From Selaginella tamariscina (Eukaryota > Streptophyta > Lycopodiopsida > Selaginellales > Selaginellaceae), in assembly GCA_003024785.1 (NCBI GenBank), contig PUQB01000948.1, positions 1 through 64,000 on the forward strand: a stretch of 64,000 bases of DNA, read 5' to 3'. Positions within the stretch are counted from its first letter, which is position 1. Every line of letters begins with the position of its first letter. A program made the position numbers and the translations under genes. This document shows, piece by piece, positions 3,249 through 53,099 of the stretch. The notes beneath the pieces were generated by a model, which worked only from the letters and a program-made list of their open reading frames with translations, ran no database searches and was not told the DNA's origin.

Positions 3249-3696
3249 GAAACAAGAAAAAACCTAATAATAATCAATAAGTTAAATATATATTTGTTAC
3301 CATTTTATGCATAGCAGCAGTATAACCGGTTGTTTGGCTACCACTGTAAATGCCATGCAGGCGCCACATAAGTGTCATATAAATATTAAATTTTAAATAT
3401 AATTAACAAGTGAAAAGCCAAACTGTTAATACAATAAATAATTTATTAAAATTTAATTAGTTAAGATAATTAACCGGGCCGCTAGTGAAAAGTGGGCCTA
3501 ATAATCAAATTGTATAACTTAACCAAGTATACGGTTTGATTATGTTTACATACTTATATATTCAGCTGTATGTATATGGCACATAGACGTATACATATCG
3601 TCACTTGATCTTATCTAGATAACCACGAGAAAGTTGTTATTAAGAACAACACACGCAATAAGAAATGAATTATTGAGTTCTGGTTATGGTTTAAAA
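2766..3696. repeat. AT-rich spacer with CA and TA microsatellites
   Basis: No gene seen between the two convergent genes. The clearest elements are a pure CA run near 3187-3217 continuing into TA to about 3240. The rest is AT-rich sequence without codon structure. Confidence 0.6.
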
Positions 3697-5778
<2,082 letters not shown>

Positions 5779-31600: not shown

Positions 31601-32036
31601 ATCCAACTAGTAAGGATGTCAAAAGGCTAATCTTTTGTGCATCAGTTGAGTAGCAGCGTGGTTGCATGCGGATCAAAAGCCTGATCTGATTCAGGAAATC
31701 TTGAAAATCAACGTGATTGCCATTGAACTTCTTTAGCATGCTGATATTTGGTTCTAAAGAAGAATTCAATGAAGAGGAAATCATGGATGTTTGAGAGAGA
31801 GCCTGCGCAGCAGCCTTGGAGGATGCATCAGCAGCTGCATGCACCACGTTGGTGGAACCTTGCAGATCTGTGGCCATTTGGCGCAAAGTGGCCAGCTCAT
31901 GAAGCAACATTTGATGCTCACGTTGAAATTGCTCAAAATCTGCCATGATCATGAAAGAAAGAAAAAGGAGAAAAACGAGGAGGGAAAAAAAAAGTAACTG
32001 AAAATTGGAGAGCTATAAAAGCAATTACTATTAAAC
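28619..32036 (-). mobile_element. Gypsy copy 2 interior lacking reverse transcriptase and RNase H
   Basis: Minus-strand gag (31952-31590, starting MIMADFEQFQREHQMLL), zinc knuckle CLYCGEAGHKVAECP (about 31130-31080), protease ALLDTGANACFMDD (about 30890), integrase (about 29832-28900, with FVRSCDTYNRSKMPRHAPSG) and chromodomain (about 28860-28640, with [18 protein letters not shown]). The RT/RNase H block of the intact relative, roughly 48810-50590, is missing: the spacer joins directly to pre-integrase sequence near 30157. A roughly 120-bp spacer unit is present about three times (30157-30500). Frameshifts are numerous. It is non-autonomous. Confidence 0.85.
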
Positions 32037-32670
32037 TGTCAAGCCACGATCCAAGAACAAGGGAGCTTAACTCAGGTGTCAAGCCACGATCCAGGAACCA
32101 GGAAGAGAGCAGGATCCCAAGAACAGGAAGGCTTGACTCAGGAACAGGACCGAGAGTAGGACGGAACTAGGAACAGGAACAGGACGGATCCAAGAGCAAG
32201 ACAGGATCAGGATAGGATTCGGGAGCAAGACAGGATCCAGAAATAAAACAGAAATAGGACAGGATCCGAGAACAAGACAGGAGCAGGACAGGATCCAGGA
32301 GCAGGACAAGAAACAAGAGCGAGACAGGAGCAGGACAGGAAACAAAACAAGAACAAGACAAGACGAGATTGATCGTAGTAAGACTGGTGTTGATAGTAAT
32401 TGATTGTACAACAATTAGGTCGGAGCTTTTATGCTCACAACTCCAAGAGCTAATCTAGGCATGAGTGCTAAAAGTGGTTGCATGCATGCAAAGTGACTGC
32501 AAGATGAGTCCACATGTCCCTTATCCTCTAGGCATATCTTGTGGCATATCCTGTAGGAATATCCTGCAACCGTATCCTGTGTCCGGAATCCTGGTAGGAA
32601 TATCCTATAGGAAAGTCTTGCAACTCATATCCTGTATCCGGAATCTTGTATCCTGCATCGGGTCATGACA
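32037..32670 (-). repeat. 5' LTR of gypsy copy 2
   Basis: TGTCAAGCCACGATCCA occurs at 32037 and again at 32077, a small tandem duplication at the LTR edge. The end is GGGTCATGACA at 32670. The interior has the same CAGGATCC/CAGGAACAGG minisatellite and the TATCCTGTAGGAATATCC block as the other LTRs. Confidence 0.75.
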
Positions 32671-33490
32671 TCAGGAGTAGAACAAGGGAGCTTGACTCAG
32701 GAGCAAGACAAGGAGCAGGATAAGAACTAAGAACTCATGACCAGGACAAGGAGCATGACAAAAATTAGGAACTCAGGAGCAGGACAAGGAGTAGAACAGG
32801 AACTAGGAACTCAAGAGCAGGACAAGGAACTAGGAACTCAGGAGCAGGACAATGAACTAGGAACTCAGGAGCAGGACAAGGAACTAGGAACTCAGGAGCA
32901 TGACAGGAACTAGGAACTCAGGTGTAGGACAAGGAGTAGAATAGGAATTAGGAACGCAGGAGTAGACAAGGCACATGACAGGAACTAGGAACTCAGGAGC
33001 AGGACAAGGCGCAGGACATGAACTAGGAACTCAGGAGTTAGGAGTAGGACAAGGGAGCTTGACTCAGGAGCAAGATAAGGAGCAGGACAGGAACTAGGAA
33101 CTCAGGAGCAGAACAAGGTGCAGGATAGGAACTAGGAACTCAGGAGCAGAACAAGGTGCAGGATAGGAACTAGGAACTCAAGAGTCAAGAGTAGGACAAG
33201 GGAGCTTTTGACTCAGGAGCAGAATAGGAAATAGGACAGGAACTAGAGCAGGACAGGAACTAAGAACCAGGAGCAGGATGAGAACTAGGAACAAGACAAG
33301 AGCATGAGGCAAGGAGTAAGACAAGAACAAGACAAGAAGAAGGAACAAGAATGATCGTAGAATAAATGGTGTTGATAGTAATTGATTGTACAACAATTAG
33401 GCCGGAGCTTTTATGCTCACAACTCCAAGAGCTAATCTAGTCATGAGTCTAATATAGTCATGAGCTAAAAATGGAGACCCTTATCCTATG
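32671..33490 (-). repeat. Extra partial LTR of the same gypsy family
   Basis: A further minisatellite block (AGGAACTAGGAACTCAGGAG variants) and the conserved tail with GTTGATAGTAATTGATTGTACA closely follow the organisation of the long LTR at 27732-28618, but it stops before the terminal TATCC block. It has no interior of its own and is probably a remnant of another insertion or of a recombination. Confidence 0.65.
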
Positions 33491-34980
33491 GACCCTAGGA
33501 CTTGGAGTTGAAACAAAGTGCATTTAGTTCCCCACACTAAGATAGAAAGTGAGTCCTATCACCCAAGGGTGGAATCGAAATAAATGTTTACGAGCCCCTT
33601 TGGATATCCAATGAGAAAGATGAGGAGTACTTGCTTAAACAAATGAAACATGTGATGGAAAGGAGGGATGCCTCCACTAGTCAAGAGGGACACCTCTATT
33701 AATAAATAAGGGAAACCTTAATGCAAAGAAGTTGAAAAGGGGGGATGACCTATAGGTGGAATAAGGGCCTCGCGAACCCTTGTTACATTCGATATGGAAA
33801 TTCCCCCAAGTTGGTGAAGACACCAACTTGAGTGGAAACGTGATGTATGTTACACCCTTTGGACCTCAAACTAACCATTAGGATTTATGAACTAACACTT
33901 GGCCTTAAGAAGTTGGGTTAGAAATTTGGGTTAGTGGATTGACCCTTGGAAAAAGACAACATGGGTTGGAAATGCAAGGTACCATGTGGGAAAACACGAG
34001 AGACAAAGTCCTAGCAGAAGAGGAAAGATAACCCAAGTTAGGGTTTTTGCAACCTTAACCCGAAAATGAGAAAAGTGGTTATGAAGGTGGATTACTACAT
34101 GGGAAACATGCTCCCTTGAATGACGCTTGTGTGCTCAAATAGGGCTTAGGGTCAACCCCAACCCATAGGCCAAAAAAAGTATAAACATGTTTATTTTGTC
34201 ATGAGAACCATGGATGCAAGTTGTAATTAAAATGGGCATGGCTATAGTCCCATTTCCTAATAATTAGCAATTTTAGCTATTTAATTAGCATTTTTTAATA
34301 TTAAAGGAATATTCTTTAGAATATATGTTTGAAAACAGAATATTCTTTAGAATATTCTATTTTGTATTCAACCCTTTAATAAATTATAGCATTCATTGAA
34401 CAAAAATTAATATTAAATTATATAATATATTGCCTAATATAACAATTAAGGAAGAGCATAAGAGGTACATTATATAAATATTAATGTTGTTATTAAAATA
34501 TTAATATTTAAATATAACATTATTAATTAAAAATTTGTAATAGTAATAATATATATATAATATACAAAATCCTATAATAATATAGTTAAGTAAACAATTT
34601 GGTACTATTATTAAAGAGTTTATAATAATTATGAATATTAAATATATGATATTTTATAATTTTGTAATTGCTTTAAGCTTCAGAAAACATACATTCCTTT
34701 GTAGTTTTGTTAATTGTGACTTTATCAATGCTTCTTAACATCCACCCATATCGAATGAATTTAACATTTATAAAACATGCTAGGTCTTTTTGATTGGGAA
34801 ACCATGTTTTCTCTAGGCATCCATTATATCTTTTGCTCTCCTTCTCATGTCGCCTTTTTTGTGGTTTGAACTATGCAACTTTAACAATACTATTTTTTGT
34901 GATTACTTCAGGTATGTCGATAATTTGACCCATCCAAATAGGTTGATTATATGACGCATTTGGAATAATGAAAACCATCA
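33491..34980. other. Non-coding spacer, strongly AT-rich after 34250
   Basis: No gene seen. 33491-34200 resembles old repeat sequence; 34300-34420 has ATTCTTTAGAATAT direct repeats; the remainder is AT-rich. Confidence 0.4.
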
Positions 34981-37787
34981 TTAGTTTTTGAAGATCCTGG
35001 CAGCAATAAAGTATGCTTTAGGTTTTTGGTTCCTTTGTCCAACAAAGTGTGGGGTTTGCACTTCCACATCACTACTGGCTTCTATGTCGTCTGTGCTCAG
35101 TGATGTCATTTCAATCTCCTCTCGCCACCTTGTTTTAGGCCAAAAAGGGTGTTGCAATTCTGTACTTGTGACAGTAGGCCCTTCCAACTCTCGAACAACA
35201 GTCTCCCAATAGTCGACCACATGCTTATATAGTTCTGAGTAACCAGTTGCCTTATCAGAATTCTTTGGCATCGATTTTTGAACCCATGCCACATATTTTT
35301 TGATGCCATCAATAATAACCTCTTGTTCCTTGAGCTGGGCACTCAATGGAATAGGGTCTGGTTGTCCTTCTGGGAGAAGTGGCTTTCCATTCTCTCCACT
35401 TTTGAAGAGCATTAACCCTCTTTCGGTAACCACTCCTGCTCTGATGGCCGTAACTTGTACTGCATAATAGGTATACCATCTCGTATGGAGAAAAAGAATT
35501 GTAGCGGCACAAGGTGACCAACTAAAGAATCACTCCCTCTTTTATATACTCCTTGAGAAATTTTTTGAAGTCTGGCACCTCAGTCACAAGCAAAGCACAA
35601 CTTTTTTTGGAGATGCAATTTTCAAAAAGATTCATCATATGCGGTAAGGTAAGTGCACTTGTCCTTTTTGTAGAGTTGGAGACCTTGCTGAAGAACGCAT
35701 CAATATCTTCATGAGTGTGACCAACCATAAGAAAACTGAGCGTGATTGTTTCAAACACACCTTTGGCAACAAGCATTGACAAGTATGCTAGCACATATCT
35801 AGAAAATAAAAGTAAGTATGAGCTTGAGAAACCCTTAAGTAAAATGATTTACCTATTTTTGTTCTCGCCTGCACAATTATCCATCTGTAAAAGCAAATGA
35901 CGAGGAAGCTTATTTGATGTTGAGGACACATGTACACTATTTGAGCTAGATCCCTCCACTGAACCTGAACTCTCAACAGGGCCATCTGTTTTTTGTGCAG
36001 GCTGCTGACAATGCCTCTCATATTCCCAAGTAGCCTCAAGTGCAGACGTGTTCATGAGAGCATTATGTAAAGGTTGAAGGTGTTGTTTCTTCACTTTGAG
36101 ATCACTGATAGGACTTGTCTGTGAGTGGGCTTCAAGGTTTCTGAAACACATGGCCAACGACCCAATAGTGAAATTGGAGTCGCTAGACCAATGTGGAAGT
36201 GAAAAGTGTCCATATGACTCACAACCGTGTCCATGTGTTAGCACACCTGTCAATGAAATCGGAAGTTTCATGACATTTCCAAGGCACTTTGGTGTTGCAA
36301 CGAGCTTTGGAATGCTGGTCTTTGAATGATCCATCTTGTCATGGATCAAGCACAGGTACTCTGATGGGCGTGACACAGAAAGCATGCGGTGTGCATAGTA
36401 CTGAGACCGGCAAGTTTGTTGTGCAATCATGTGGGCCTCCATCTTCTTTTGAATGGCAGTGATCTCCACCAAGGTTTTTGCACAAGCCTCTGCAGCCTTC
36501 AATGATGTACAAGTGTCACACTTGGAAAAGCTAGAGTGTTTTGCAATCTCCACATCCTTAAAATGAGTATTCCATATGTTGTTGAAGGTACCAGTGCAGA
36601 TTGCTTCCCATCAACTGAGGCACTTGTTCACATGTTCACACAGCTTCAATTGAGTGTAGATGAAGGCAAAACCTTGAGATTTTCCCTGACCCCTGCATTT
36701 GTGGTTCGGCATTTGTGAGGCATCCTGTCTGCATTTGCTTCCACAAAAGCCTTGAGTATCTCTATGGCTGCCATAATGTGAGAGCGGGTTTTGACCAAGC
36801 AGTGTTCCCATGTACTGAGGTTCGCGCTCCATCTAGCCACTCATCCCTCCGACGGTAGAACGTGGTCTTTGGGATCCCGTATATACTGTACCAAGCTTTG
36901 AAGCAGATGGCCACCTTATTAAATACCATGGATGTACTCTGATAACCTGTGTCCGAGGCCATTCCATCAATACACCCAGTTAGTGCAGCATATACAAACT
37001 CATGCCTTTGCTTTTGGGTGAGCGTACGAAAGACATGTCTACATTGGGTAATTTCATTCCGGTCTGCCATCTGACAACACTTCTTCTTGCAGCAGTCAAT
37101 CGTGGAAATGCTCGTAACACTTTCGGAAGATGTAGGATCCATCTTACCCTCTTGCTGAAACTTGCAGGGGAAGATCTGCAACCCATGAATCGCCTTTTTC
37201 TTACAATAGGACCAATGCAAGGAACCTCTTCAAATATGAGTTGTTCTTCCGGGTTGTTATTATTGAAATCCAACCCAGAATATGTTGAACCATCTTGCCG
37301 TCTTAATTCAGATGTTCGCCACCTCACGAGGGATCCAGGATGCAAAGTGCCATTAGGTGAAACTCTGTCACAACTACACCCACGAAGTCGGACCCTAGTT
37401 TCTCTTCTGACACTGCTTCCATTGGATTTATAGCTGTGATGATGCCTCTCCCAACCTCAATCTCATGAAGAAAGAGAATCACCTCATCCATCACAGCAGG
37501 CAAGCCATCATCTGGAAAACTCGTGCTACTGTTTGTTTGTGACTCTGTATATTCTGTGTCAGCCTTGACTTCATCCAAATTCCACAATACAGGAGAACCC
37601 TCCTCAAATTCCATTCCAGGAACCTCAACATGCTTGAAAATGGTGTTCACCCATACGTACACACAAGATCCTTGGGCAATATTGTGACATGATGCATTAT
37701 CATCTCGAACTTCCACAGTTCCAGTGCCAACTATCTCGTTGTTCCGAAGAAGACATACTTTATCTCCAGTATTATACATATTGTCCT
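34981..37787 (-). pseudogene. DUF7869-type protein with DUF8039-like N-terminus, decayed
   Basis: The first visible exon starts after an acceptor at 37787 and encodes GDKVCLLRNNEIVGTGTVEV and SCVYVWVNTIF, resembling the DUF8039 domain of plant transposon-associated proteins. Next come CCKKKCC, HVFRTLTQKQRHEFVYAALT, IYGIPKTTFYRRRDEW, FVEANADRMPHKCRT, KHSSFSKCDTCTSLKAA, CLIHDKMDHSKTSIPKL, LLQMDNCAGENKNR, an intron, then LSFLMVGHTHEDIDAFFS. The three acidic motifs (HDKMD, QMDN, HEDID) look like an RNase H-type nuclease arrangement; that is my inference. At least three frame changes (near 37200, 36800 and 36650) break it, and frame changes recur after 35525. The first coding exon begins at an acceptor, so a 5' exon lies further right. 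Confidence 0.75.
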
Positions 37788-37927
37788 GCACATAAATAAT
37801 TGTGTTATTTATGATATCTGTTTATGCAATATTTTAAGAAATCATAACTGCGTTGCTTAATAATATGCATGTGCAATAATACATAATTATATAAAATAAT
37901 ATCTCATGCTTTATTAATACAACTGAT

Positions 37928-38956
37928 GGGCGGGATTAATCCCGCCCACGACTCCCTGAGAGGAACGTCGGCGGGATTAATCCCGCCGAGACTCTACCCC
38001 TTCGGAAGGAGTCGGCGGGATTAATCCCGCCGGACTCTACCCCTCGGAGAGAGTCCGGGATTAATCCCGCCGTCGACTCTACCCCATCGGAAAGAGTCGG
38101 CGGGATTAATCCCGCCGTCGACTCTACCCGGAAAGAGTCGGCGGGATTAATCCCGCCGCTTCCTCCGCGAGGAAGATCGGCGGGATTAATCCCGCGCCGA
38201 CTCTCCCATCGGAGAGAGTCGACGGGATTAATCCCCGTCGATTCTCCTCCCGTGAGAGTCGGCGGGATTAATCCCGCCGTCGGTACTTCCCTCGTCGGAG
38301 AGAGGGGGATTAATCCCGCGCCGGTACTTCCTCGTCGGAGAGAGGCGGCGGGATTAATCCCGCTGCGGACTCCCTCCAATGAGGAAGTACCTGCGGGATT
38401 AATCCCACTGCCGGATCTTCCTCGTCGGTGAGAGTCAGCGGGATTAATCCCGTTGCAAATCCCTCCACGAGGAAGAGGGGCGGGATTAATCCCACCCACA
38501 ACATTGATGACCGAGAATAGGCGGCGGGATTAATCCCGCCCACAACACTGACGACGGAGAATAGGCGGCGGGATTATCCCGCCCACAACTCTGACGACGG
38601 GGAATGCGGCGGGATTAATCCCGCTCACAACTCTCTCCGAAGTTATGATTTCAAAGAGATTCATGATGAATTCTGTCCATAAATATATTAAAAAAGAAAG
38701 TGGTGGCAAGATTAATCCCACCACCCCTTCTCTGCCTCCTAAATGGTTGGTGAGATTAATCCCGTATATACTCTTTCTATAAATTCAAGTAACTCTTTAT
38801 CAATTGAGAGAGTTATTGGTGGGATTAATCCCGCCGCTCTTTTTAAGAGGCGGAGAAGCATTGCCTGGACTAATTCTGCCATAGCTATCAAAGAGATGGT
38901 GGCGGGATTAATCCGCAAAGAGGCGAAAAAAAATGACCGGATTAATTTCGCCGCCC
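37928..38956. repeat. Palindrome array 1: about 22 units of GGCGGGATTAATCCCGCC
   Basis: I count about 22 copies of the 18-bp palindrome or close variants (GGCGGGATTAATCCCGCC), spaced mostly 40-60 bp. The left part is nearly perfect; the right part (38640-38956) is degraded. Spacers are partly symmetrical too: GACTC...GAGTC pairs flank many units, so each unit could form nested hairpins. The array is 140 bp upstream of the first visible exon of the DUF7869-type gene. Long open frames here (GINPA/GLIPP repeats on the minus strand) are by-products of the repeat. Confidence 0.95.
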
Positions 38957-41400
38957 CGGCTAACTGAGAATATTAAGTTAAAAGTATATTTAAATGGGAT
39001 AAATCCCTAACAGCATATATTGTAATCCTAATGCATTCCTAAATCCCTAAATTCTAAAATTTAAAGAGAGAATGTAAGAGAGTGAATCTTTATAAATATA
39101 TCTAAATTTGTTTATAATACTTGTAAAAAGCACTGAAAGTGCCGTGCTTTCCTATAACAATAGCGCACCCATTTAATATCGCTCCTGAGCTGATCATTAA
39201 GAAGAAAAAAAGAAAATCTGAAGAGTGAAAAATAAAGAAATGAAGAAACCCTTGCCGGAGAAAGAACCAGATCTGAATTTGAGTGGGAAATTAAATACAT
39301 TTTCAAATTTACATGTCAGACTGATAATACTTATGTCAGAAATTCAAAATTTTTGAAAACAAAAAAGAAAATTTAAAATGAGTTGAAACAAATAACCGAC
39401 AGTCTGACATATATACTCTCCAATTCTAATGAGTGTTTTAAAATTGCATTTAATGTCATTCAAGTGCTTCAAGCTATTTAATATTACGAAATTTTTGTAA
39501 TTATTTTACATTCTTAATATTCAAGTATATATTAAGTTTATATTATATATATATTAATATATATATATATATAATATATATATATACACTAATACAATTA
39601 AATAAATTGATATATTATTATATATCATTTAAAATATATTCATAGTTCTGTTTTATTATATTATTTTCTTAATATTCCAATATTAAACCTAATTATCATA
39701 ATTAATTAGTCTTATTCTTAATTATCTCAAGAATTATTTTACATTTGTATATATATGGCATTTTCTCAATTAATTTCTTATTATTTCAAGAATATTCCTA
39801 TAAACCTTATTATCAATATTTAAATTAATATATATTTATTAAAACTATATATGATATATATTAGATAAAATGATGTATTATTATGTATAATTTAAAAATA
39901 TATTCATAGTGTTATATTAATATCATTTTCTTAATTACTTGAGTAATTAATCTTCTTTATATTAATGCGATATTCTTTATTATTTTCTTATTATTCCAAG
40001 AATATTTCAATATTAAACATGATTATCATAATTAATTTAGTTAATTATCAGTACTTGATCTACATTTGTATATATTAATGGGATTTTCTCAATTAATTTC
40101 TTATTATTTCAAGAAATATTTTAATGTTAAACCTATTATCAATATTAAATTAAATTATATATTATTAAAACTATATATGGATAATATTAGAAATAAAATC
40201 ATATATTATGTATAATTTAAAATATGTTCATAGTGTGTTTATTAATTATATTATTTTCTTAATTATTCGATGTTTGTTTTGCACACATATATAAAACACA
40301 ATCATAAATTTATATATACACGTGCACACGCATTAGAAGCACTTACAGAGACACATATGCACACACATGCCACATTGCCCTAAACCAAACTTGAGAAATT
40401 ATATTATTGCTTATTTATTGAAAAACATCATGTTCAACGCATGTATGATCTATATGTACTCAGTTTGTGTGTACGTAACACATTGAATTTACACATGTAA
40501 TATATATGTATGTTGTGTGTATACACGTGTGTATGTATATGTGTACTAATATATGCAATGTGTACGATTTTCATTTGTTAACACTCTATCTCTTCTGTCA
40601 TACATACACAGTGTCACCATGCATAATCCCTTCTCTCATACATACACACCATGCATGATCATGATCATAATATGTAGCCTGTCTCTTCTTTCATACATAC
40701 ACAGCCGCATGATCCATAATATGTACTGATGTTACAATATTATGTAATATGTATAATGTATATCTGTGTATAACATTCACTCATCTCATACATAAAACAC
40801 CATGCATGATCCATCCTAACCCTAAACCCTAAACCCTATGTAACACATTAAATTTACACATTAATATGTATGTATGTTTATGTGTATACACGTGTGTATG
40901 TATATGTGTGTACTAATATATGCAATGTGTATGAATTTAATTTGTTAACACTCTTTCTCTTTTCTCATACATACACACCATGCTATGCATGCATATGATT
41001 ACCTCAAACATACACACCATGTGCCATAATATGATGCACTCATCTCTCATACATACACACCATGCATGATCCTGTACTCTGTTTCTTTAATATTAATATG
41101 TACTAATATGTATGTATGTCTATGTATATAATACTATGTGTGTATATATGTATCACTGCACGTAAAACTTTAACACTCTCATGGACACACACGTGTTAAA
41201 CCCTTGCATGATTTTTATTTTTGGGGTGTATGTGATACACCCACGCACACGCACACGTTGATAATATAATGAAAGAATATTCATTTAGGGCGAATCTATA
41301 GTTTATTCTTTTTAGGGTTTAAGTATATTCTTAAAAGGAATATTCAATTAGGGTTAATATATATTCTATTCCTTTTAGGATTTTGGTATATTCCTAGGGT
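38957..41400. other. AT-rich region between the two palindrome arrays
   Basis: No gene recognised. 39500-40280 is very AT-rich with TA runs and repeated TTATTTTCTTAATTAT-like words. 40300-41150 has repeated CTCATACATACACACCATGCATGATC units. A possible shared promoter region for the two divergent genes lies here (inference). Confidence 0.45.
40817..40838. repeat. Short interstitial plant telomere repeat
   Basis: TAACCCTAAACCCTAAACCC holds about three units of the plant telomere repeat CCCTAAA. It is too short to be a telomere. Telo-box motifs of this type also occur in plant promoters. Confidence 0.8.
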
Positions 41401-41461
41401 TTCAAGAAGTAAGGTGGCAAAGGCGACGGCTGTGAAATCTCCTTTTCTCTTTCACACATAG
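41401..41461 (+). promoter_or_regulatory. Possible 5' UTR exon of the ParB/methyltransferase-like gene
   Basis: After two AGGGTTTA/AGGGTTAA boxes and ATTCCTTTTAGG repeats, the sequence becomes exon-like, with a donor CATAG/GTGAGA at 41461. The next good acceptor in that direction is at 43434, directly before the coding exon. If real, the first intron would contain palindrome array 2. No transcript evidence. Confidence 0.3.
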
Positions 41462-41598
41462 GTGAGATCTCTCTCTCTCTCACACGCACACTCTTGAGTT
41501 TATTTATTTATTTTTATTCACATATATATTTATATGTGTGTGTATCTTAATAATATAATTTAGATCTCTATCTCTCACACACACACGCACACTCGTAT

Positions 41599-41633
<35 letters not shown>

Positions 41634-41786
41634 ACACATATATATATATATATATCTGTGTGTGTTTGTGTTTGTGTATCTGTATAATTATATTAATTTA
41701 TTAATTTTATCTTTGCACACGCACGCACACTCCTGTATAATTCTATTTCTCGCACACCTCTATAGTACATACACACACACACACAC

Positions 41787-41818
<32 letters not shown>

Positions 41819-42193
41819 ATTTATATAATTTTATTGATTTGTTAATTGTATCTCTCGCACACACACGCACACTCCTGTATATTATATATGTGTGTGTGTG
41901 TGTTTGTTTATCTGTATGATTTTATTTGTTTCACACGCATACACACGATATACATATACACATATATATATATACCTATGTACATATATACATACATATA
42001 TTATATGTATCAGTATCTGTATAATTTTATTTATTTATCTATCTCTCGCACACACCCGCACACTCCTGTATATACATAGACATATACATATGTGTGTGTG
42101 TATTAGTATAATTTTATCTAATTTGTCTATCTCTGGCACACACATGCACTCTCCTACACACACATATACATATATATATATATGTGTGTGTGT

Positions 42194-42228
<35 letters not shown>
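41462..42228. repeat. Dense CA/TG/TA microsatellites
   Basis: Repeated blocks of ACACACAC, TATATA and GTGTGTGT, together with four or more copies of a TCTCGCACACACACGCACACTCCTGTAT-like phrase, here split by variants. Open frames in this stretch are microsatellite artefacts. Confidence 0.85.
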
Positions 42229-43133
42229 TGGCGGGATTAATCCTGCTGCTATATGGTTATCCCCTCGACAACAGGATTAATCTTGCGTTATATGGTTAGA
42301 CCCTCGGCGGCGGGATTAATCCCGCCGCCCTTCAAGCAGGCTATTCGGTTAGCCTCATGAGCGGCGGGATTAATCTCGCCGCCATTTCAGGCAGGTTATT
42401 TGGTTAGCCTCATGAGCAGCGGGATTAATCCAACCGTCCATAAGGCTAATCGAAGAGCGGCAGGATTAATCCCGCCACCTACGCATGCCTTTGCAGAATC
42501 CGGCTGGATTTATCTCATTGCCATTGGCCTGTCTGAAGGCCTAGGCGGCGGGATTAATCCCGCCGGATTTCGCACAGGGCATTGGCGTCCGGCTGATTAA
42601 TCCCGCCGCATAGCATGCCCTGTGCGGAATCGGGCGGGATTTATCCCGCCCAAAGGCCTGCCTGAAGGGCCTAGGCGGTGGATTAATCCCGCCCGATTTC
42701 GCACAGGGCATTGGCGTCCGGCGGGATTAATCCCGCCGCATAGACCCGAGTGAAGGCCTGGGGGGGATTAATCCCGCCGAGCCTTCAATGCCTGTTGGAG
42801 GATGAATCCCGCCACCCTTCCTTTTTTCTCCATTGGTGAGTCGGACCAATCCCAAACGTTTCTGTCTGAGACGTAGAAGGTTTACAACATACCAATGGAG
42901 AGACTGGGAAGGGTGGCGAGATTCATTTCAACATCCCTTACATGGTAATCCCGCCGCCTTTCTGGAGTCACTGAAGGGGTGTGCCAAATAAATCCTGCCA
43001 AGTTCTCTCTGAGACCGAGAAGGGTGGCAGATTAATTCCGCACTCCCGTTCAAGGCCTCCAGAAAGGTGGCGAGATTAATCCCGCCCACTCTTTCAGGAG
43101 GCATTGAAGGGGTGGCGAGATTAATCCCGCCGC
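42229..43133. repeat. Palindrome array 2: about 20 units of GGCGGGATTAATCCCGCC
   Basis: About 20 copies of the same palindrome, more divergent than array 1 (for example GGCGAGATTAATCCCGCC). Spacers are 25-50 bp and also contain inverted pairs such as TTCGCACAGGGCATT and GCATGCCCTGTGCGGAAT. The array ends 302 bp before the first coding exon of the ParB/methyltransferase-like gene. Confidence 0.95.
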
Positions 43134-43245
43134 ACCTTCCATGTGAATATATATGTGTATTAGTATATATAAGTTGCATATCTCATTTTATTTACTTTTA
43201 TCATCTTATCATAATATTTCGAGTAAAAGCTAGGAATCTATGTAA

Positions 43246-43332
43246 AACTGTCCAGAGCTCACATTTGTGGTGGTTCTAAAACGAAATGTTATCTTTCTTT
43301 TGCACTAGCACAAATGTGAGCTTTGGACAGTT
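43246..43332. repeat. Inverted repeat with 24-bp arms
   Basis: Left arm 43246-43269 and right arm 43309-43332 are reverse complements except for one position. Core of the arms: AGCTCACATTTGTG and CACAAATGTGAGCT. The loop is 39 nt. As RNA it would form an almost perfect hairpin. It sits between array 2 and the coding exon at 43435. Confidence 0.85.
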
Positions 43333-43434
43333 AATTCCGTCCACTTCTCTCTGTGTATTATTTTTGTATATTCGGGTTTATACAAGTGTGTGTGCGTTTT
43401 TATATGATTTTATTCATAGTGTATTATTTTGCAG

Positions 43435-46400
43435 AAGGACGATTTATTAAACAAGGAGATCGAGTCATTAGTATGGAGTCGTCGTCAAATTCTGGGTAAG
43501 AATTAAAATAAAATCTGTTATACTCGGATATGTGTTTGAACTAATCATTTTTGTATTCAGATGTGGAATTGAGGTGACATTAAGAGAGAGCAGGAGAAGA
43601 GATGGGCAGGGGGATTCTGGAATCAACTTGGCCATATTTCAAACTAAACGGGAAGCGCATTGGAACAACCATGGTTGCTGTCAAACTAACCTCTGTCACA
43701 TCGCATGGACAAGCAAAACAATGGAAAGTGGGTGTGCTAGTCAAGCATCCGAAAGCATGCTGTGAACCCAGATTGAACGATGCTCGACACATATGCCTTG
43801 TTCCATCCAATGTCACGTTCTCGGATCCAGAGGTCGCCAGTTACAACATTAATTTCGGGTGGTTTGTCGACTTGTGGATAATGACGTTCACGTGTTCACT
43901 AATGATGTTGACCGTGGAGTTCTTCTTCAACTCAACGAAAGCCCATCTATGGAGGGGATCCAACTGGATGTCTACTTCGAAGATCTTCAGACTCATCGAG
44001 TAGGTGTATTCTCAGCAGAGATTGCTTCACAATACAGAAAATCACAAGTGGAGCAATCGTCCCTCTTCACATTGAAGAAGAACACAGCGACATCATAAGG
44101 GAGATTGAGAGGGTGGCTTGGTCTCAGGTTCTTTACAGATCACGTTCAATTTGCTTAGAAAATTTCGGGAGCTGGAAGAGTGTGCCGAGAACATTAGAAC
44201 AGCATCAATCGGGGATCACACATGTTGATTCGGATCGTAGAAGAAAATCATCGATCGTTTTGTCAGCTGCACCTGTGGCATCCATGCTGCAATAAGCCAA
44301 GGAAATGATGTTGGATGATAGGATTTACGAGTGTAGGGTTAAGTATTGCAGCGTCAACCCAAACTTCAATTACAGGCCACTCAACAGGAACGTGTAGCTG
44401 AGCTCATGGAGAAGATGAAGGACGACAATTCTTACACCGTTCCACATAATGCTGTTTTGTGTCATACTACGAGAAGAAACAAAGGCGCTGACAAAGTGTG
44501 GATCACAACACCGAACAAATGAGGAAGGTTCAGACGGAGAATAGAAAATCAAAGTACTACATCATTAGTGGCCAGCACACAATAACGGCAGCCCAACGAC
44601 TTCTCGACGAACACAACAAAGGAACGATGGCAACAAAACTTTCCGAGCATACCCGTGAGAAGCTGACGAAAAGATCGGCGTTTTTAGCAAGGAATCTCAC
44701 AATCGAGCAGTACCATAAGTTATCGCGGAATGGGACGCTGCAGACACCAACCACTACAACAGCAAAATATGGGAGAAGTTCAAACACACGCGAGCCGTGT
44801 GGGAATCTCTTCAGCGACCACAAAGAGCTACCGCAGGGAATACACAATCTGCGGACTACCGGGTAAGCAAATTGTTTGGGCGGGATTTATCTCGCCGGTA
44901 TATTAATCTGTCTTTTTTCAGAGAGTTGAAGAAATTGTAGCAGTTGATTTTGCCCAGGTGGGCGGGAAGGAAACATCCTTTTTGATGATGTTGATTTCTT
45001 GTCCCGAGGATAGGATCTTTGCCAAATGGTTGGGGATTATGGAATCCTTTGCAAAAGGAACACTGAAAAGAAGCAGACAAGTGAAGAGAAGTCTGCAAAG
45101 AAACCCAGTAAGACGCCGAAGGCTAAGTCTGTTCAATCTATAAAGGATGTAGACAACGATTTCAAGCTCACATGGTTGAAGCCTTTAAATGGAACAACGA
45201 TGGAGGAGATGGAAGTCTTGGCTGATTTGGTGATTGATGGCAAATTACAGATTAACAACAGCAGCCCACCTCTCCTTTTCATCTCAAGGCAATGGAGTTG
45301 AAGACGGTCAGGCACTTCAAGGAGTGGTTGGGAATACACTGCCACAAACTGGGTTGGACCTCGGCTTCAACATACGAAGAGGTCAGCAAATATTTGCATG
45401 TGACAAACGATGATATGCTTGTCGAATGGGTGAATCAATCGGAAGATCTGGGCAAGAATCTATTGCACGCCAACGCCAAAAGGAGAACATTGCGATGACG
45501 CCTTCTCTTATGGCAGTCCTTCAGCAGCGGAGAACCGAGTTGAACCTTATAAAGGAGGATGCTACGAATCACGACAAGCCCTACAGATGTTTGTTGTTGG
45601 ATTCGGAGACTTTATGGGGTACCATCACTGCTTGTAGGAAACCGTTTCAATTGTTCGTGATGGATCGGCGGGTGTCAAAAAATCCTTCGACAGACAGGAC
45701 ATAGAGGATTTGGTGGAGAAACTTAGCCGTGCAAGCATGTACAAAGAAGGTATTTATTATTGAATTCATACTTGCACTCTTGACTGATATCTACGTTTTC
45801 AGGTATTTATTTCTTGATTCTTGCTCATGTCACCGATACCTTTGCCTTCCCTTCCAAGAGGAATAAACATCGTTGGACAGGATTTTATATGAATGATGCT
45901 GATCCGAAGTGCATTGATGTTGTTCACTTGGTTGTTAGGAATGCGCCAAACAATTTCAAACTTCCAAATGACTGGCCAGGCATCTGTTTGCACTCCAACG
46001 GCCCTGAACCTCCATCCGATACACCGATAGCTGAGAGTGACGTATTCGGCAATGTACGTTATCCAAACATTACAAGTCAAGCGGCACGGAGCATCGTCAA
46101 CTTGATCAGGGGTCCTCACAGTGATGCGTGGGTTTTTGACTACTGCACTAGGGGGTCCGTCTTGAAGGAGTGTTACCTTCGGGATACATGTGTGTTTGCC
46201 GTTGAAAAGGATAAGACCATGGTTGAGGACCTGAACAAGTGGATAGAGAGGTTCTCAACTGATACCCCAACAAACCATAAGGAGTATTTGAGAAAGTTCC
46301 CTCCGATAAGTGCGATAGCTCTGAAGACGAATCTGGTTCAATGTCGGAGTCTGAGGACGAACTTCAATCAGATATTAGACCGGAAGTTATCTCGAGGAGT

Positions 46401-46443
46401 ACAGAACATTCACACACTCCATTACCCATGGAAACATCAATAG
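43435..46443 (+). pseudogene. ParB-like and methyltransferase-like protein, decayed
   Basis: Follows an acceptor at 43434; introns at about 43496-43560, 44863-44921 and 45751-45802. Recognisable parts in order: an N-terminal domain with CCEPRLNDARHICLVPSN; a ParB-like region (about 44340-44620) with NFNYRPLNRN, AELMEKMKDDNSYTVPHNA and YYIISGQHTITAAQRLL; a middle region with HFKEWLGIHCHKLGWTSAST; and a C-terminal part (45803-46443) with DAWVFDYCTRGSVLKECYL and TCVFAVEKDKTMVEDLNKW, resembling SAM-binding motif I and the following acidic strand of DNA methyltransferases. Several stops and frameshifts (near 43860, 44240-44400 and 45100-45500) inactivate it, but the last 209-residue frame is open. 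AATAAA follows at 46609. ParB and methyltransferase assignments are inference from motif shape. Confidence 0.55.
44879..44899. repeat. Single palindrome unit inside an intron
   Basis: GGCGGGATTTATCTCGCCGG is a variant of the array unit, within the intron after a GGTAAGC donor of the ParB/methyltransferase-like gene and away from either array. Confidence 0.7.
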
Positions 46444-46765
46444 AAGATAGAAGATCTTGAACCATCTCACAAGCGGCTTAGACCTTCTTCGCCTCACTCA
46501 GAAGGTAATAGCGAAGAAGAATTGTTAATGAGTTCTTAGAGTGACGAATAGTTGTAAATGAGTGTAACATAAGGCATTTTTGTATATTTCGTTTATATTT
46601 GTACAGAAAATAAATTCTCAAGGATTAATGAAGCTTTTAGTTCAAACATGGGTCACACATTAACAAGGTAAATAATATACCTTGATAATTTTAAGGTCAG
46701 CTAATTATCATTTTGCAGATGTAATGAAAACAGTTGAGAACATGGATTTTCACATTGCCATGAGG

Positions 46766-47278
46766 TTTCAAGCCACAATCCAGGAAATATGAAGTGAGCA
46801 GGATTCCAAAGTAGGAAGGCTGACTCAGGAGCAGGATAGGAAACAAGACAGGAACTAGGAATCAGGAGCAAGACAAGCGCAGGACAGGATCCAGGAATAG
46901 GACAGGAACAGGATGGATCTAGGAGCAGATAGGAACAGACAGGATCCAGAGCAGATAGACAGGACAGAGGAGGAGACAAGAGCAAGACAAGAACAAGACA
47001 AGAAAGAACAAGAATGATCGTAGAATGACTGGTGTTGATAGTAACTGATTGTACAACAATTAGGTCGGAGCTTTTATGCTCACAACTCCAAGCTAATCTA
47101 GTCATGAGTCTAATCTAGTCATGAGCTAAGAATAGTGTCCCTTATCCTCTAGGCATATCCTGTAGCATATCCTATAGGTATATCCTGTAGGAATATCCTG
47201 TAACCCGTATCCTGTATCCGAAATCCTGCATCCTGTATCCTGTATCCGGAATCCTGTATCCTGTATCGGGTTGTGACA
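46766..47278 (-). repeat. 3' LTR of the gypsy element
   Basis: Starts TTTCAAGCCACAATCCAGG (first bases diverged from TGTCAAG) and ends GGGTTGTGACA. Contains the CAGGA-type minisatellite, GTTGATAGTAACTGATTGTA and repeated TATCCTGTAGG/CCTGTATCC units. Confidence 0.9.
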
Positions 47279-47280
47279 GC

Positions 47281-48850
47281 ACCTCCTCCCTAAGGACGAG
47301 TTCCACGAGTCTTAGGACCTGGTTTAGCAGGATAATGCCGATGGAAGGCAGCAACTTTGGAAGAAGCATGGAGTAAGTTGGATGCAGGTTCCCAAGTGCG
47401 ATCGGTAGGCAAATAACCTTTCCAATCCACCAAGTATTGAAGTTGGCGGCGATGAAGACGAGAATCAAGGATGGCTGCAACTTCGTACTCAGGTTCACCA
47501 GCAATGACCACAGGAGGGGAGGAGAAGAAGCACGACCAGGAAGAGAAGAAGGATGATACGGCTCCAACAAGGAGGTGTGAAACACAGGATGAAGTTTCAC
47601 CGTGGATGGTAACTCGAGTCGGAAAGCTACAGGATTTACCTCCGCCACGATCCTGTAAGGGCCCAATCGTTGAAAATCCAACTTAGAAGAAGGCCTGTTG
47701 GTGCGAATGTGTCGACGAAGAAGCCACACGAGATCACCAACTTGTATGCAGGTGCCGGCTGACGGTGGCATCAGCATGATGCTTGTACCGTTCCTGTGCC
47801 TGCTGAAGATGAACCCGGAGATCATCCTGTACCTGACGAATGCTGGAGACGATCCTGTACTGCAGGAGCGGAAGAAGGAGAAGCAGGAGAGCAAAGAAGC
47901 AAAAACGTGGATGGTGGCCTGTAAGAGCAAAGAAAGGTGTCTGGCCTGTAGATGCGTGAATGGAGTTGTTGTAGGCAAACTCCGCCATAGGAAGAAGGTC
48001 CAACCAATTATCCTGTTGGTAACTGATGAAGCAGCGAAGATATTGCTCCAAGGTCTGAATTGTGCGTTCTGACTGCCCATCAGTTTGCGGGTGATATCCT
48101 GAAGAAAGATCCGCTTTAACCTGTAGACTCCGAAGAAGCTCTCGCCAAAACTTGGACATGAATTGTGGACCTCGATCGGAAACAATGCTCTCAGGAAGAC
48201 CATGATGTCGGAACACCTCACGGATCACCAACTCGCAGTTGTCTGACCTGTAGCTGTCTTGTTGCAGGGTAGGAAATGAGCCTGCTTGGTGAAACGGTCA
48301 AACCACAAGAACTGCATCGAATCCACGAGAAGGAGGAAGATCTGTGAGGAAATCCATAGAAATGGATCTCCAAGGAGCAGAAGGAACAGGAAGAGGACGA
48401 AGAAGACCAGAGGGTGCATGACGAGGCATCTTCGACCTGTTGCAGGTGTCACAACTCCGTACAAACCTTTCCACAAAACCTCGCAACCCAGGCCACCAAT
48501 AGTTGCGAGTCACCAACTCAACTGTCTTGGCCACACCAAAATGTCCTGTAGCCGGGGTATCATGACAATCCTGTACCACACGAGTCCTGCAAACACCAAC
48601 AGGAACGTACAGGAGACCTTCCCGGTACAGGAGTCCATCCTGTATGGTGAACAGGTTGTAGTCTGGACGGGAACTGGAGGAAGAGGAACTTGCAACGTCA
48701 GGATGAATGTGTGAGAACACATTCTTTGCCAAGTCGTCTGTAGCCAACTGCGAACGGACGTCCTGTAGGAGTGTTGAATTTGCTGGAGCCTGATGAACCT
48801 GCAGTGCCGCAAGCCGGAATCGATCAGGACCCAACAACACTTGCCTTTGA
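47281..48850 (-). pseudogene. Gypsy integrase and chromodomain region
   Basis: Minus-strand integrase with the HHCC-type start ([19 protein letters not shown], then CDTCNRSKMPRHAPSG), catalytic core with DFLTDLPP, VSDRGPQFMSKFWREL and HPQTDGQSERTIQTLEQYLR, and a GPF/Y-like part (QRLGPYRIVAEVNPVAFRLE). It ends in a chromodomain, 47511-47300, with [20 protein letters not shown] and [20 protein letters not shown], a module that targets insertion to modified histones. The core is split over two frames near 48230 and again near 47860. Confidence 0.9.
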
Positions 48851-50392
48851 CAGTCAATGCAGGATCGCCCGGGCTTGGTGCAAGGTAAGAGCGCCTAGAC
48901 AATGCGTCCGCCTTGCCATTCCGAAAACCGGGCCTGTAGACGATGACGAAGTCAAAACGTGATAGGAACTCCGCCCACCTAGCCTGTCGCCGACTGAGAA
49001 CTCGAGCCGTTTGAAAGTACTCCAGGTTCTTGTGATCCGTAAGAACTTGTACAGGATGTGCAGCACCTTCCAGGAAATGCCGCCACTCCTCAAAATCCAC
49101 AATGGCCTTGAGTTCCTTGTCATGAATCTCGTAATTGATCTCCGCCGAAGGAACTTACGAGAGTGAAAAGCTACAGGATGAAGCAACTTGTCTTCTCCAA
49201 CTTGTGATAGGACGGATCCTACTGCAAAATCCGAGGCATCTGCTTCAACGAAGAAAGGGAGAAGGATCAGGATGTGCTAAAATCGGAGCTGTCGTGAAGG
49301 TGTCCTTGAGTGTTGTGAATGCATGTTCCGCCTTGTCGGACCAAGAGAAAACCTCTGTGCGCTTGGTGAGTTCCGTGAGTGGAAGTACACGCTTGGAGAA
49401 GTCCTGTATGAACGCCTGTAGAAGTTTGCAAAGCCAAGGAAACATTGTACATCTCGTACAGACTTGGGCCTCTCCCACTCCACGATGGTCTTCACCTTGT
49501 GCATGTCCATGGAAACGCCAGCAGGAGAGACGATGTAGCCCAAGAACTCCACAGAATCCCTATCGAAAAAACACTTCTCCAACTTCGCATACAGGCCATG
49601 CTCGAAGCCGCTGTAGAACCAATCGTACATGCTTGTCATGTGCCGCCTGGTCCTTGGAGAAAATCAAAATGTCGTCGAGGTAGATCACCACAAACTGGTC
49701 CAAGAAGTCACGAAAGATGTCGTTCACCATGTGTTGGAACACGGCTGGGGCATTGGTAAGGCCGAAAGGCATCACCGTGTACTCGAAGTGTCCATACCTT
49801 GTACGAAAGGCAGTCTTCCACTCATCGCCTGGACGAATCCGTACAAGGTTGTAGGCCCCTCGTAAGTCGATCTTCGTGAACACCTTTGCTCCTCGCAGCC
49901 GATCGAGAAGTTCCGGGATCAATGGCAACGGGTACCGATTCCGAATGGTACTTGATTCAAACCCCTGTAGTCCACAACCAAACGTAAGCTCCCATCCTTC
50001 TTCTTGACAAAGAAGATAGGCGCTCCTGCAGGGGACTTTGAGTGACGAATGAAGCCGGATGCCAAGTTGTCCTCGATGTACTGGCGAAGAACCTCCAACT
50101 CTGTGGGTGACAATGCGTAAATCGGTCCGAACGGTGGAGTCTTTCCTTCTGCAAGATCAATAGGACAGTCGTAGGACCTGTGAACAGGAAGAACTGTAGC
50201 CTTGTGCTTGTCAAAAACGTCCTTAAAGTCGTGGTACTTGGATGGTAGAGAAGAAGGAGGAGAAGGAGAAGGAGTAGGCGAAGGAGATTGAAAAACAGGA
50301 GAGTCAGACACAGGAAAGGTAGAAGAGGACGTAGGAGTTACTTGAAAGGCAAAAAGGTGGAAAGGAGCAGGATCAGTGGTAAGTTCATGCAT
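48851..50392 (-). pseudogene. Gypsy reverse transcriptase and RNase H region
   Basis: RT begins near 50250 (FKDVFDKHKATVLPVHRSYD) with [20 protein letters not shown], then [20 protein letters not shown] and the catalytic YLDDILIFS box (about 49680). RNase H-like sequence follows to about 48900 ([20 protein letters not shown] and [20 protein letters not shown]). Frame changes occur near 49925, 49600 and 49270. Confidence 0.9.
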
Positions 50393-51270
50393 GGTAGTGG
50401 TAAGAACTCGGAGAGGAGCAGGAGGGAGTTGTGACTGAAAAAGAGGAAGGATCTTGGGGGGTGGAACAGAGGAAGAGTAACAAAAGGAGGCAGGATTGGA
50501 GAAACCTGTGTGGATGTTGACGAGTGTACAGGATTGGAAGAATCCTGTACAGAAGTCCGTGGTTGCACAGGAGTGAGGGAAGCCTGTGAGTGTGCTGACG
50601 AACCAACAGGAGGTGGATCCTGTTGAGGAGGAACCTTCGACACTGATACAGGATTGGAAGAACCCTGTACAGGAATCCGCAAACTTACAGGAGTGGAGAG
50701 AACCTGCGGATGTGCTGAGGAACTGACATGAGGTGAATCCTGTCGAGGAAGAGTCTTCAACACTGGTACAGGAACAGGCACGGTCAATCCTGTAGCTTGT
50801 ACTGCCTCAGACACCAAGGATGTATCCTGCACGCAGGAAGGTACAGGATTGATCCTGGCTGCTGGAGAGGAAAACGTGAGCGTCCTAGACCTCCAGTCGA
50901 TCTGCGGATTTGCAACAACGAACCATGGCATGCCAAAAATGATGGGAGTCGACCGAGTCTTGATCAAGTTGAAGGAAATCGAACAGTTGAATGCACCATG
51001 ACTGCAAGAGAGAGGTGTGGTAGCATGGGTAACTGCGCCAGAAGCAATCAAACGACCATCGGCCACCTCTACAGGAACTGCACGCTTCAACTTCACCACC
51101 GGAATGCCATGCTGAGCTGCAAAAGTGTCATCCATGAAACATGCATTTGCACCAGTGTCTAACAGGGCAAACTCCTTGAGCTCTCGATTATTGAGGCGAA
51201 TGTGTACAGGAAACTTGAGTGATGGAATGGTATGAGCAGCACCAATGGAGCCTGCACCTACGTCCAACTT
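50393..51270 (-). pseudogene. Gypsy aspartic protease and Pro-rich linker
   Basis: LLDTGANACFMDDTFAAQHG carries the DTGA active site (about 51160). It is followed by the FGMPWFVVANPQIDWRSRTL motif and a long Ser/Pro/Val-rich linker up to the RT. The linker contains a repeated unit of about 120-190 bp (50520-50800). Confidence 0.85.
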
Positions 51271-52251
51271 CGCGGCTCCTAGACGAAGTGGACATTGAAG
51301 TTTTCCGACTGAACTTCAGCTTCGGCTTCACGCGTCTTGAACTTCTGGCTTTATTAGGACATTCCGCCACCTTGTGTCCTGCTGCACCACAATACAAGCA
51401 TAGGTTCTCACCCACGACGTTGCTTCTCAGCAGTTGAAAGTGGGCCACGCTTGGATTTGTTAACCTCCATAGGAACTGCTCCAGAAGGTGTCGTAGGAAC
51501 ATGTGCTACGGCTACAGGATTGTTGGCAGGAACTGCTGACGGAATTTTTCCTGACGGCGCTCGAACAAACGGTTGTCGCAGCGAACGGCCTGTTGCATGA
51601 TCTCCGCTAACGTTTGAGCATCCGGTAATGTAAGGAGAAGGTCCTTCACATCATCCCTCAGCCCAAAACGAAAGTGTTCGATCAATGCAGTCTCGTCCCA
51701 TGGAATGTTCGTGCACAATTGCTGGAATTCGGATGCATAAACGGAAGCTGGTCTGGATCCTTGTGTGAGCCTCCGTAACTTGTGCATGCAGAACGGTACT
51801 TATCAGGATCTCCAAAACAGGCTTCAAAGGCAGCCACGAAACCTTCAAAGTCTTCCATCAATGGGTCGTCACGCTCCAGCAAGGGAGCAACCCAAGCTCG
51901 TGGAGATCCACTTAGTAAGGATGCCAAAAGGCCAACCTTTTGTGCATCCGTCGAGTAGCGGCGTGGTTGCATGCGGATCAAGAGCCGGATCTGATTCAGG
52001 AAACCTTGGAAATCGGCACGGTTGCCACTGAACTTCTCTGGCATGCTGATCTTCGGCTCCGGAGAAAAGTTCGATGAAGAAGGAACCACCGATGCCTGAG
52101 AGAGAGCCTGCGCAGCAGCCTTGGAGGATGCATCAGCAGCTGCATGTGCCGCATGGGTGGAGCCTTGCAGATCGGTGACCACTTGGCGCAAAGTGGCCAG
52201 CTCATGAAGCAACATTTGGTGCTCGCGTTGAAAGTGCTCAAAATCAGCCAT
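51271..52251 (-). pseudogene. Gypsy gag
   Basis: Starts MADFEHFQREHQMLLHELAT at 52251. The retrotransposon gag core includes LIRMQPRRYSTDAQKVGLLA, SGSPRAWVAPLL and EQ-rich RFGLRDDVKDLLLTLPDAQT. A CCHC knuckle CLYCGAAGHKVAECP lies near 51400-51355. A frame break lies near 51780-51790. Confidence 0.85.
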
Positions 52252-52347
52252 GATCTTATGAAAGAAAGAAAGGAGAAAAACGAAGGAAAAGAATCAAGGA
52301 AAAAAAGTAGCTGGAAACGAGAGCTATGAAAGCAGTTACTATCAAAC

Positions 52348-52887
52348 TGTCAAGCCACGATCCAGGAACCAGGAAGAGCAGGATTCCAAAGGAAGGCTTG
52401 ACTCAGGAACAGGACAGGACAGACAGGAACTAGGAACTCAGGAGCAAGACAAGACGCAGGACAGGATCCAGGAGTAGGACAGGAACAGGATGGATCCAGG
52501 AGCAGATAGGAAAGGACAGGATCCAGGAGCAAGATAGAACAGGACAGGATCCAGGAGCAGACAAGAGCAGGAGGCAAAGAACAAGACAAGACAAGAACAA
52601 GAATGATCGTAGAAGACTGGTGTTGATAGTAACTGATTGTACAACAATTAGGTCGGAGCTTTTATGCTCACAACTCCAAGCTAATCTAGTCATGAGTCTA
52701 ATCTAGTCATGAGCTAAGAATAGTGTCCCTTATCCTCTAGGCATATCCTGTAGCATATCCTATAGGCATATCCTATAGGTATATCCTGTAGGAATATCCT
52801 GTAACCCGTATCCTGTATCCGAAATCCTGTCATCCTGTATCCTGTATCCGGAATCCTGTATCCTGTATCCTGCATCGGGTTGTGACA
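52348..52887 (-). repeat. 5' LTR of the gypsy element
   Basis: TGTCAAGCCACGATCCAGG at 52348 to GGGTTGTGACA at 52887, with the same internal blocks as the 3' LTR. Visible differences between the LTRs (minisatellite length, scattered substitutions) indicate the insertion is not brand new. Confidence 0.9.
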
Positions 52888-53099
52888 GAGGTAAGAGAGG
52901 GGTTTGGCAAAAATTTCTTGTGCCACATGTCAGAATGACAGAGTTCATGCAGGAAATGGATAATAATGCAGCTCAAAACATCGTTACCATGGGGACCACT
53001 TCAGTTTTTTCATCATCATTTTTATTGGCTTCAGTTCCGAAAACAATTTTTTCCGCACCTGCAATATCTGAATCTTGTAAGGATGATGTACAATTAAAT

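Follow-up and report, generated by a model that had tools for sequence, protein, structure and literature searches.

The transposases of VANDAL elements are of the MULE type. Among transposons that use arrays of short motifs to address their own copies, the Arabidopsis VANDALs are the best studied (accessible sections of PMC5735166 and PMC10398659). In VANDAL21, arrays of YAGTATTAY are described to occupy non-coding DNA, both ahead of VANA21 and within introns of VANB21 and VANC21 (accessible sections of PMC5735166), and VANC21 is described to bind these arrays with a consequent loss of DNA methylation, the density of the motif being important (accessible sections of PMC5735166 and PMC10398659). 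A different use of short repeats is found in CACTA elements, whose subterminal motifs form stem-loops and differ between families, while their TNPA-type proteins are said to diverge fast (accessible sections of PMC2613891). Here we analyse a stretch of 64,000 nucleotides from Selaginella tamariscina (contig PUQB01000948.1, positions 1 to 64,000; the window, hereafter), in which two divergent genes, A and B, are each preceded by an array of one and the same palindrome. We hold likeliest, with our confidence evenly balanced, that the interval spanned by these parts is the body of one decayed DUF7869-class DNA transposon. The layout in the window is that of VANDAL21 with a palindromic word in place of YAGTATTAY, and we therefore take the palindromes to be, most likely, operators to which a protein of the element binds and so holds the genes active.

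Arrays of one palindrome ahead of two divergent genes

With up to 4 mismatches of 16 allowed, GCGGGATTAATCCCGC has 40 matches in the 64 kb, 22 of them in array 1 (37929..38951), 16 in array 2 (42230..43132), one at 44880, and a poor one at 8226, outside the arrays and genes A and B. The palindromes, whose word is GGCGGGATTAATCCCGCC, are mostly spaced at 39-45 bp in both arrays (median 42 bp in array 1 and 43 bp in array 2, gaps of 60 bp or more excluded), and the spacers of array 2 differ from those of array 1. A looser cut-off gave 23-24 units in array 1 and 18 units in array 2. The 12-bp core GGGATTAATCCC occurred 32 times with at most 1 mismatch, compared to a mean of 0.18 and a maximum of 2 in 100 dinucleotide-preserving shuffles. 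A blind detector of 18-bp palindromes, applied to the whole window, reported 34 palindromes, 22 of which belong to the array family; the same detector found a mean of 7.3 palindromes and no family in 10 randomised copies of the window, and a family of two or more in none of 10 pieces of 4.5 kb taken from elsewhere in the window.

The nearest palindrome lies ~150 bp from the first in-frame ATG of gene A (37779) and ~343 bp from that of gene B (43473). An earlier note, made from the same letters, had described two divergent, disrupted and intron-bearing genes, each with an array of the same palindrome ahead, and the counts of 22 and 16 copies bear this out; the distances of 140 bp and 302 bp given there are about right. 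The stray palindrome that it had placed in an intron of one gene is also present, as a single copy with 2 mismatches at 44880..44895 in a putative 59-bp GT..AG intron (44863-44921) of gene B. This copy is the sole match with no more than 2 mismatches outside the arrays, and 0 of 2000 simulated sequences of gene B length contained one.

Conservation of the palindrome and drift of the spacers

Pairwise identity of the palindromes (offsets 1-9, the central 18 bp) was 79% within array 1, 76% within array 2 and 77% between the arrays. The corresponding values for the spacers (offsets 13-20) were 36%, 26% and 26%, compared to 25% expected by chance. Since likeness between the spacers of the two arrays has been lost while the palindrome and the ~43-bp period persist, the palindrome itself appears to have been under selection, and the palindromes look like selected binding sites.

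These comparisons bear on two other explanations. One is that the parts are chance neighbours, a dead DUF7869 gene and an unrelated gene B with a dispersed minisatellite family between them, which we regard as improbable. Only one copy of the locus is at hand, gene B is without relatives, and the window is rich in repeats, all of which would suit such an origin; however, a core kept in both arrays, next to spacers in which change has reached saturation both from array to array and inside array 2, is unlike a drifting minisatellite, and the intron copy, the mirror placement of the arrays and the palindrome families at two other DUF7869 loci also argue against it. The other explanation, to which we give distinctly less credence, is that the arrays work through the structure of their DNA or RNA, with strings of hairpins or cruciforms triggering small RNAs, insulating or stalling replication, and with no element protein as a reader. 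The segment 37925-38640 of array 1 indeed folds far better than its shuffles (-255.9 kcal/mol vs a mean of -140.7 kcal/mol for 20 shuffles, z -20), and dyad symmetry is found in the array 1 spacers too. Yet the palindromes by themselves account for the fold score, the spacers of array 2 have no kept sequence, and changes in the pairing of the core do not co-vary, although they would be expected to do so if only pairing mattered.

The CpG observed/expected ratio was 0.98 in the spacers of array 1, which thus show no depletion, and 0.51 in those of array 2, which do; depletion is strong in gene A (0.39) and milder in gene B (0.80). The values of the array spacers give no clear signal of motif-directed methylation loss.

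Gene A as a DUF7869 transposase candidate

Gene A (34703..37779, minus strand), as delimited by Pfam, tblastn and the in-frame ATG, is a frameshifted transposase candidate with at least one intron. Its read-through protein of 928 residues matched DUF7869 (PF25273, E 2.9e-46, 157.9 bits vs a cut-off of 26), in agreement with the family named in the earlier note, and by homology the gene reaches to ~34703, beyond the extent described there. DUF7869 was the sole Pfam match at E up to 10, with no TNP1/EN/SPM or TNP2 domain. In tblastn with its relatives, gene A was covered from 37773 (relative P0005) to 34703 (relative P0010), and over almost all of its length it is colinear with relatives that measure about 1050-1180 aa. 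The DUF7869 core (35540..35923, minus strand) consists of two exons and a short intron and carries the motifs QMDN and VGHTHEDID.

At least 49 relatives of gene A were found among the best 8000 candidates scored in a very large protein collection, the best five being 40-49% identical, and 48 of the 49 relatives listed carry DUF7869 in the precomputed annotation. Named relatives come from Riccia (a liverwort), Mytilus, Saccostrea, Mya, Exaiptasia and Holothuria. When the alignment members were scanned against Pfam, PF25273 was found in all 23 and the TNP1/EN/SPM transposase model PF03017 in 2 of the 23 (best E 6.6e-4). Thirteen relatives (from metagenomes, a liverwort, molluscs, an anemone, a sea cucumber and the loci L002-L004 described below) and two window exons were aligned in 15 rows, in which D192, D353 and D395 (P0001 numbering; D353 and D395 are separated by 42) reach at least 90% conservation, and all three motifs (DKMD, QMDN and GHTHEDID) are kept in gene A. 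An RNase-H-like transposase would be expected to show such a D-D-D triad, its second gap being short, and we consider gene A a candidate for such an enzyme; the family as a whole keeps a transposase-like D-D-D pattern with a presumed catalytic role. It is in this motif that a DNA-transposon origin of gene A finds its support.

The family profile found no relative among PDB sequences at E up to 1. DUF7869 is annotated as a domain of unknown function only, and the literature searched yielded no paper naming DUF7869 and none on the motif GHTHEDID. Viral contigs scanned with the DUF7869 or companion profiles contained no relative, and plasmids contained no DUF7869 at E 1e-5. Frameshifts or stops interrupt both gene A and gene B, and these disruptions may reflect decay or assembly error.

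Gene B as a divergent companion

Gene B (43433..~46540, plus strand) is a frameshifted string of open frames of no known family, in which three of the breaks are short intron-like GT..AG stretches, recognised by eye, and the rest are frameshifts. Its eight longest frames sum to 978 aa, a value reached by 0 of 300 shuffles (maximum 874), and the longest single frame, of 219 aa, was matched by 2 of the 300.

The earlier note had read gene B as a ParB-like protein and a methyltransferase. On that account, a ParB-like protein would sit on parS-like palindromes in an integrated replicon, with the methyltransferase marking the sites, and palindrome arrays beside a gene do recall ParB-parS systems. 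By eye, the stretch KYYIISGQHTITAAQRL of gene B resembles what we take to be a ParB box, and the nearest ParB-type match of gene B, to DUF6551 (E 0.092, 12.7 bits, far below the cut-off of 26.8), coincides exactly with it. In contrast, Pfam searches with gene B, whole and in pieces, matched no family and no ParB or methyltransferase model; neither identity emerged from PHROGs or NCBIfam with the pieces, or from tblastn of two pieces against phage genomes; and the PDB sequences held no relevant match to the pieces. Searches of a large protein collection recovered no relative of gene B. The window proteins that were scanned included no replication gene, no replicon genes were seen, and the sites differ in number and placement from those of ParB-parS systems. 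ParB is not normally known to require sites by the dozen at the start of each of two genes. Nothing relevant was found in the literature searched for ParB together with a transposon or a palindrome. We therefore find neither identity of gene B supported, and the partition and site-marking ideas lose their support with them; of the explanations weighed here, an integrated ParB system is the one we find hardest to credit.

Palindrome families at other DUF7869 loci

When prokaryote genome contigs were searched for the DUF7869 profile, there were 65 pattern matches, 4 of which encode relatives (L002-L005). Their contigs are assigned to cyanobacterial, Shimia, Planctomycetia and Flavobacteriaceae metagenome-assembled genomes, and, judging by the distribution of the family, they are probably mis-binned eukaryotic DNA. 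L005 has the contig number, length and match position of L004, and the two, unaligned, were counted as one, which leaves three distinct loci. One exact palindrome on a viral contig (L001) stands alone and was taken as chance.

The blind detector reported 3 strict palindromes in L002, all of one family (the largest family in 100 randomised copies was 1), and 8 palindromes in L004, 4 of them alike (randomised maximum 2), one of these four being coding and only loosely alike. Looser counts gave 10 copies in L002, none of them in the gene, which takes up 66% of this locus, and 12 copies in L004, 1 of them in the genes, which take up 74%; the consensus words for these counts were derived from the same loci, which makes their comparison with random sequence optimistic and the blind detector the fairer test. 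The palindrome words are wholly different by locus, GGCGGGATTAATCCCGCC in the window, TTTAGCTCGAnTCGAGCTAAA in L002 and GCGATCAnTGATCGC in L004. Three palindrome clusters are found in L004, each ahead of one of three successive genes. Ahead of the first in-frame ATG, the closest palindrome is approximately 86 bp away in the L002 DUF7869 gene and 214, 136 and 106 bp away in the three L004 genes, and across six genes (A and B of the window, the L002 DUF7869 gene and the three in L004) this distance is ~86-343 bp. That gene A, gene B and the arrays form one unit, as the earlier note had proposed, is in part supported by these results, indirectly, because the same palindrome is found ahead of both genes and in the gene B intron, and because two of the three other DUF7869 loci have a palindrome family of their own, almost entirely non-coding and near genes.

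A companion gene lies on the same strand as the DUF7869 gene in both L003 and L004, and the two companions are 26% identical over 480 residues (E 5e-42 as a single comparison, the L004 companion being cut by the contig end). When gene B was compared to the L003/L004 companion, BLASTP gave E 2.5 (C-terminal part only), hmmsearch gave negative bits, and hhalign gave a probability of 0.2%, with the reversed sequence no worse. Since the L003/L004 companion is not detectably related to gene B, the companion proteins either differ between lineages or diverge fast. A methyltransferase-like C-terminus that seemed, by eye, common to gene B and the L003/L004 companion was dropped after these comparisons.

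The DUF7869 proteins L003:3655-7404 and L004:259-3465 start with OTU-protease-like motifs (DGNC and NDxHFW, by eye); the Pfam OTU model was sub-threshold in L004 (E 0.034, 15.1 bits vs 23.3) and absent in L003 at E up to 1. Between the DUF7869 gene and the companion, L004 has two related genes in tandem that match no known family (L004:4293-5096 and L004:5498-6253); they share a 116-nt stretch at 72% identity and have a palindrome cluster ahead of each.

The operator reading weighed against terminal binding sites

If the palindromes are operators, gene A would be the transposase of the element, an RNase-H-like D-D-D enzyme, and gene B its companion DNA-binding or regulatory protein. An element-encoded dimer would bind the dense arrays ahead of both genes, whose ~43-bp period corresponds to about four turns of the helix, and this binding would keep both genes transcribed, most likely by displacing host silencing in the way of VANC in VANDAL elements. 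Mobility of the element, protein binding, the dimer and anti-silencing are all steps that we infer. The locus would resemble VANDALs as a multi-gene DNA transposon in which a short, presumably family-specific motif is densely arrayed outside coding sequence, ahead of the transposase gene and within companion introns, and motif arrays are indeed found in the non-coding DNA of the window. In contrast to VANDALs, gene A is a DUF7869 gene, gene B has no Pfam match, its likeness to VANC being only supposed, and Pfam searches of genes A and B found no MULE transposase together with a VANC-family protein.

Several results weigh against the operator reading. The VANC21 motif is present in one orientation and is non-palindromic (accessible sections of PMC5735166), in contrast to the palindromic motif of the window. 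Symmetric substitutions in the core show no co-variation (offsets 1-8: P 0.75, P 0.87, and P 0.82 with the arrays together), and outer co-variation is weak (offsets 6-12, P 0.014, both arrays together). For gene B, the databases searched gave neither a homolog nor a recognised DNA-binding domain. In L003, the blind detector found two unrelated palindromes, no family and no more than in random sequence, and 4 of the 9 imperfect repeats in the looser count lie within open frames, this locus having the weakest of the words, which was derived from those imperfect repeats and is symmetric at 7 of 10 pairs. The L004 DUF7869 gene is preceded by another palindrome, with two copies at 24 and 144. In L002, 5 copies lie at 34-509 before the gene and the other 5 at 3573-4222 after it, a placement that fits element ends as well as promoters. 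Unity was assessed on one copy in the source genome, that of the window, and no target duplication for the element was found in the flanks searched. Comparisons of 33.5-35.0 kb with 46.4-46.8 and 52.9-57 kb, and of 20-27.8 kb with 52.9-64 kb, revealed neither terminal inverted repeats nor CACTA ends; all matches were short, and the longest fell in simple repeats. Terminal repeats had not been found in the earlier note either. The best inverted matches were 11 bases in the inner right flank and a score of 12 in the outer right flank, values without a shuffle comparison, and a Gypsy insertion interrupts the right flank.

The main rival, which we find unlikely yet better placed than the other alternatives, supposes the same element with palindromes that serve as transposase-assembly sites, in the manner of the repeats that TNPA binds in the subterminal regions of CACTA (En/Spm) elements. 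In that case the arrays would be close to the true ends, and two back-to-back elements or one rearranged element would be present in the window. The palindromes on both sides of the L002 gene favour this explanation, as does the weak match of 2 of the 23 DUF7869 relatives to the TNP1/EN/SPM model. CACTA elements also resemble the locus in having a repeated short, partly palindromic motif that forms stem-loops and varies between families, and in having two element proteins (accessible sections of PMC2613891). On the other hand, the arrays of the window and of L004 are found between genes, near start codons, where a subterminal position is only conjectured, and one copy is intronic. No long terminal inverted repeat and no CACTA ends were found in the flanks listed; of the CACTA/TAGTG words there (2 left, 14 right), none pairs further by eye, and the true ends may lie outside.

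More tentatively than for the locus itself, and with confidence short of even, we extend the operator reading to the family. The DUF7869 proteins may be the D-D-D transposases of DNA transposons with two to four genes, an as yet undescribed class found in plants, algae or protists and animals, with each family having its own palindromic address word ahead of its genes. The word would change with the fast-evolving companion that reads it and act as a self-recognition code, by which an element activates only itself and escapes host silencing. If true, this would be a second, unrelated class with palindromic arrays, written in other letters in other lineages, and sequence-specific self-recognition would have arisen repeatedly. 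DUF7869, filed as of unknown function, would gain a concrete function to test, and the companions would be a possible source of new sequence-specific chromatin-opening proteins. A worn-out plant element with about forty copies of one palindrome just ahead of its two genes, taken with some distant relatives of one of these genes that have other palindromes in similar places, suggests that transposons may have a means, not described before, of marking genes as their own.

Surroundings of the putative element

The middle that separates the divergent genes A and B measures ~5.7 kb. Between the arrays it is an AT-rich spacer with CA/TA microsatellites (38952..42229, GC 0.27); in 400-bp steps, GC falls to 0.14 in 39000-42230, where internal duplications and CA/TG microsatellites are also seen, and a single copy of the plant telomere word CCCTAAACCCTAAA is present at 40820. 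Between array 2 and gene B, at 43246-43332, there is a near-perfect inverted repeat with ~24-bp arms (-48.9 kcal/mol as RNA), none of whose exact 15-mers recurs elsewhere in the window; it may be a miRNA-like hairpin or a tiny miniature inverted-repeat transposable element (MITE).

Beyond gene B, a Gypsy long terminal repeat (LTR) retrotransposon (46770..52888, minus strand; LTRs 89.6% identical, target duplication GAGGT by eye) bounds the right flank and is outside the palindrome element. It apparently splits, by eye, a plus-strand exon on its 46700-46770 side. To its right (52889-54080) are broken frames matching an NLI-interacting-factor (FCP1-like) phosphatase (PF03031, E 1.7e-5), which may be a host gene, a captured gene or a third element gene. 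The left flank holds a second Gypsy-type element (27732-33487) with diverged LTR-like repeats. The window has the character of land-plant DNA, with a gene at 4.2-4.8 kb that matches the Pfam family PAD_porph, of the agmatine-deiminase fold, a NAC gene (Pfam NAM) at 62.7-63.5 kb and the plant-type telomere word.

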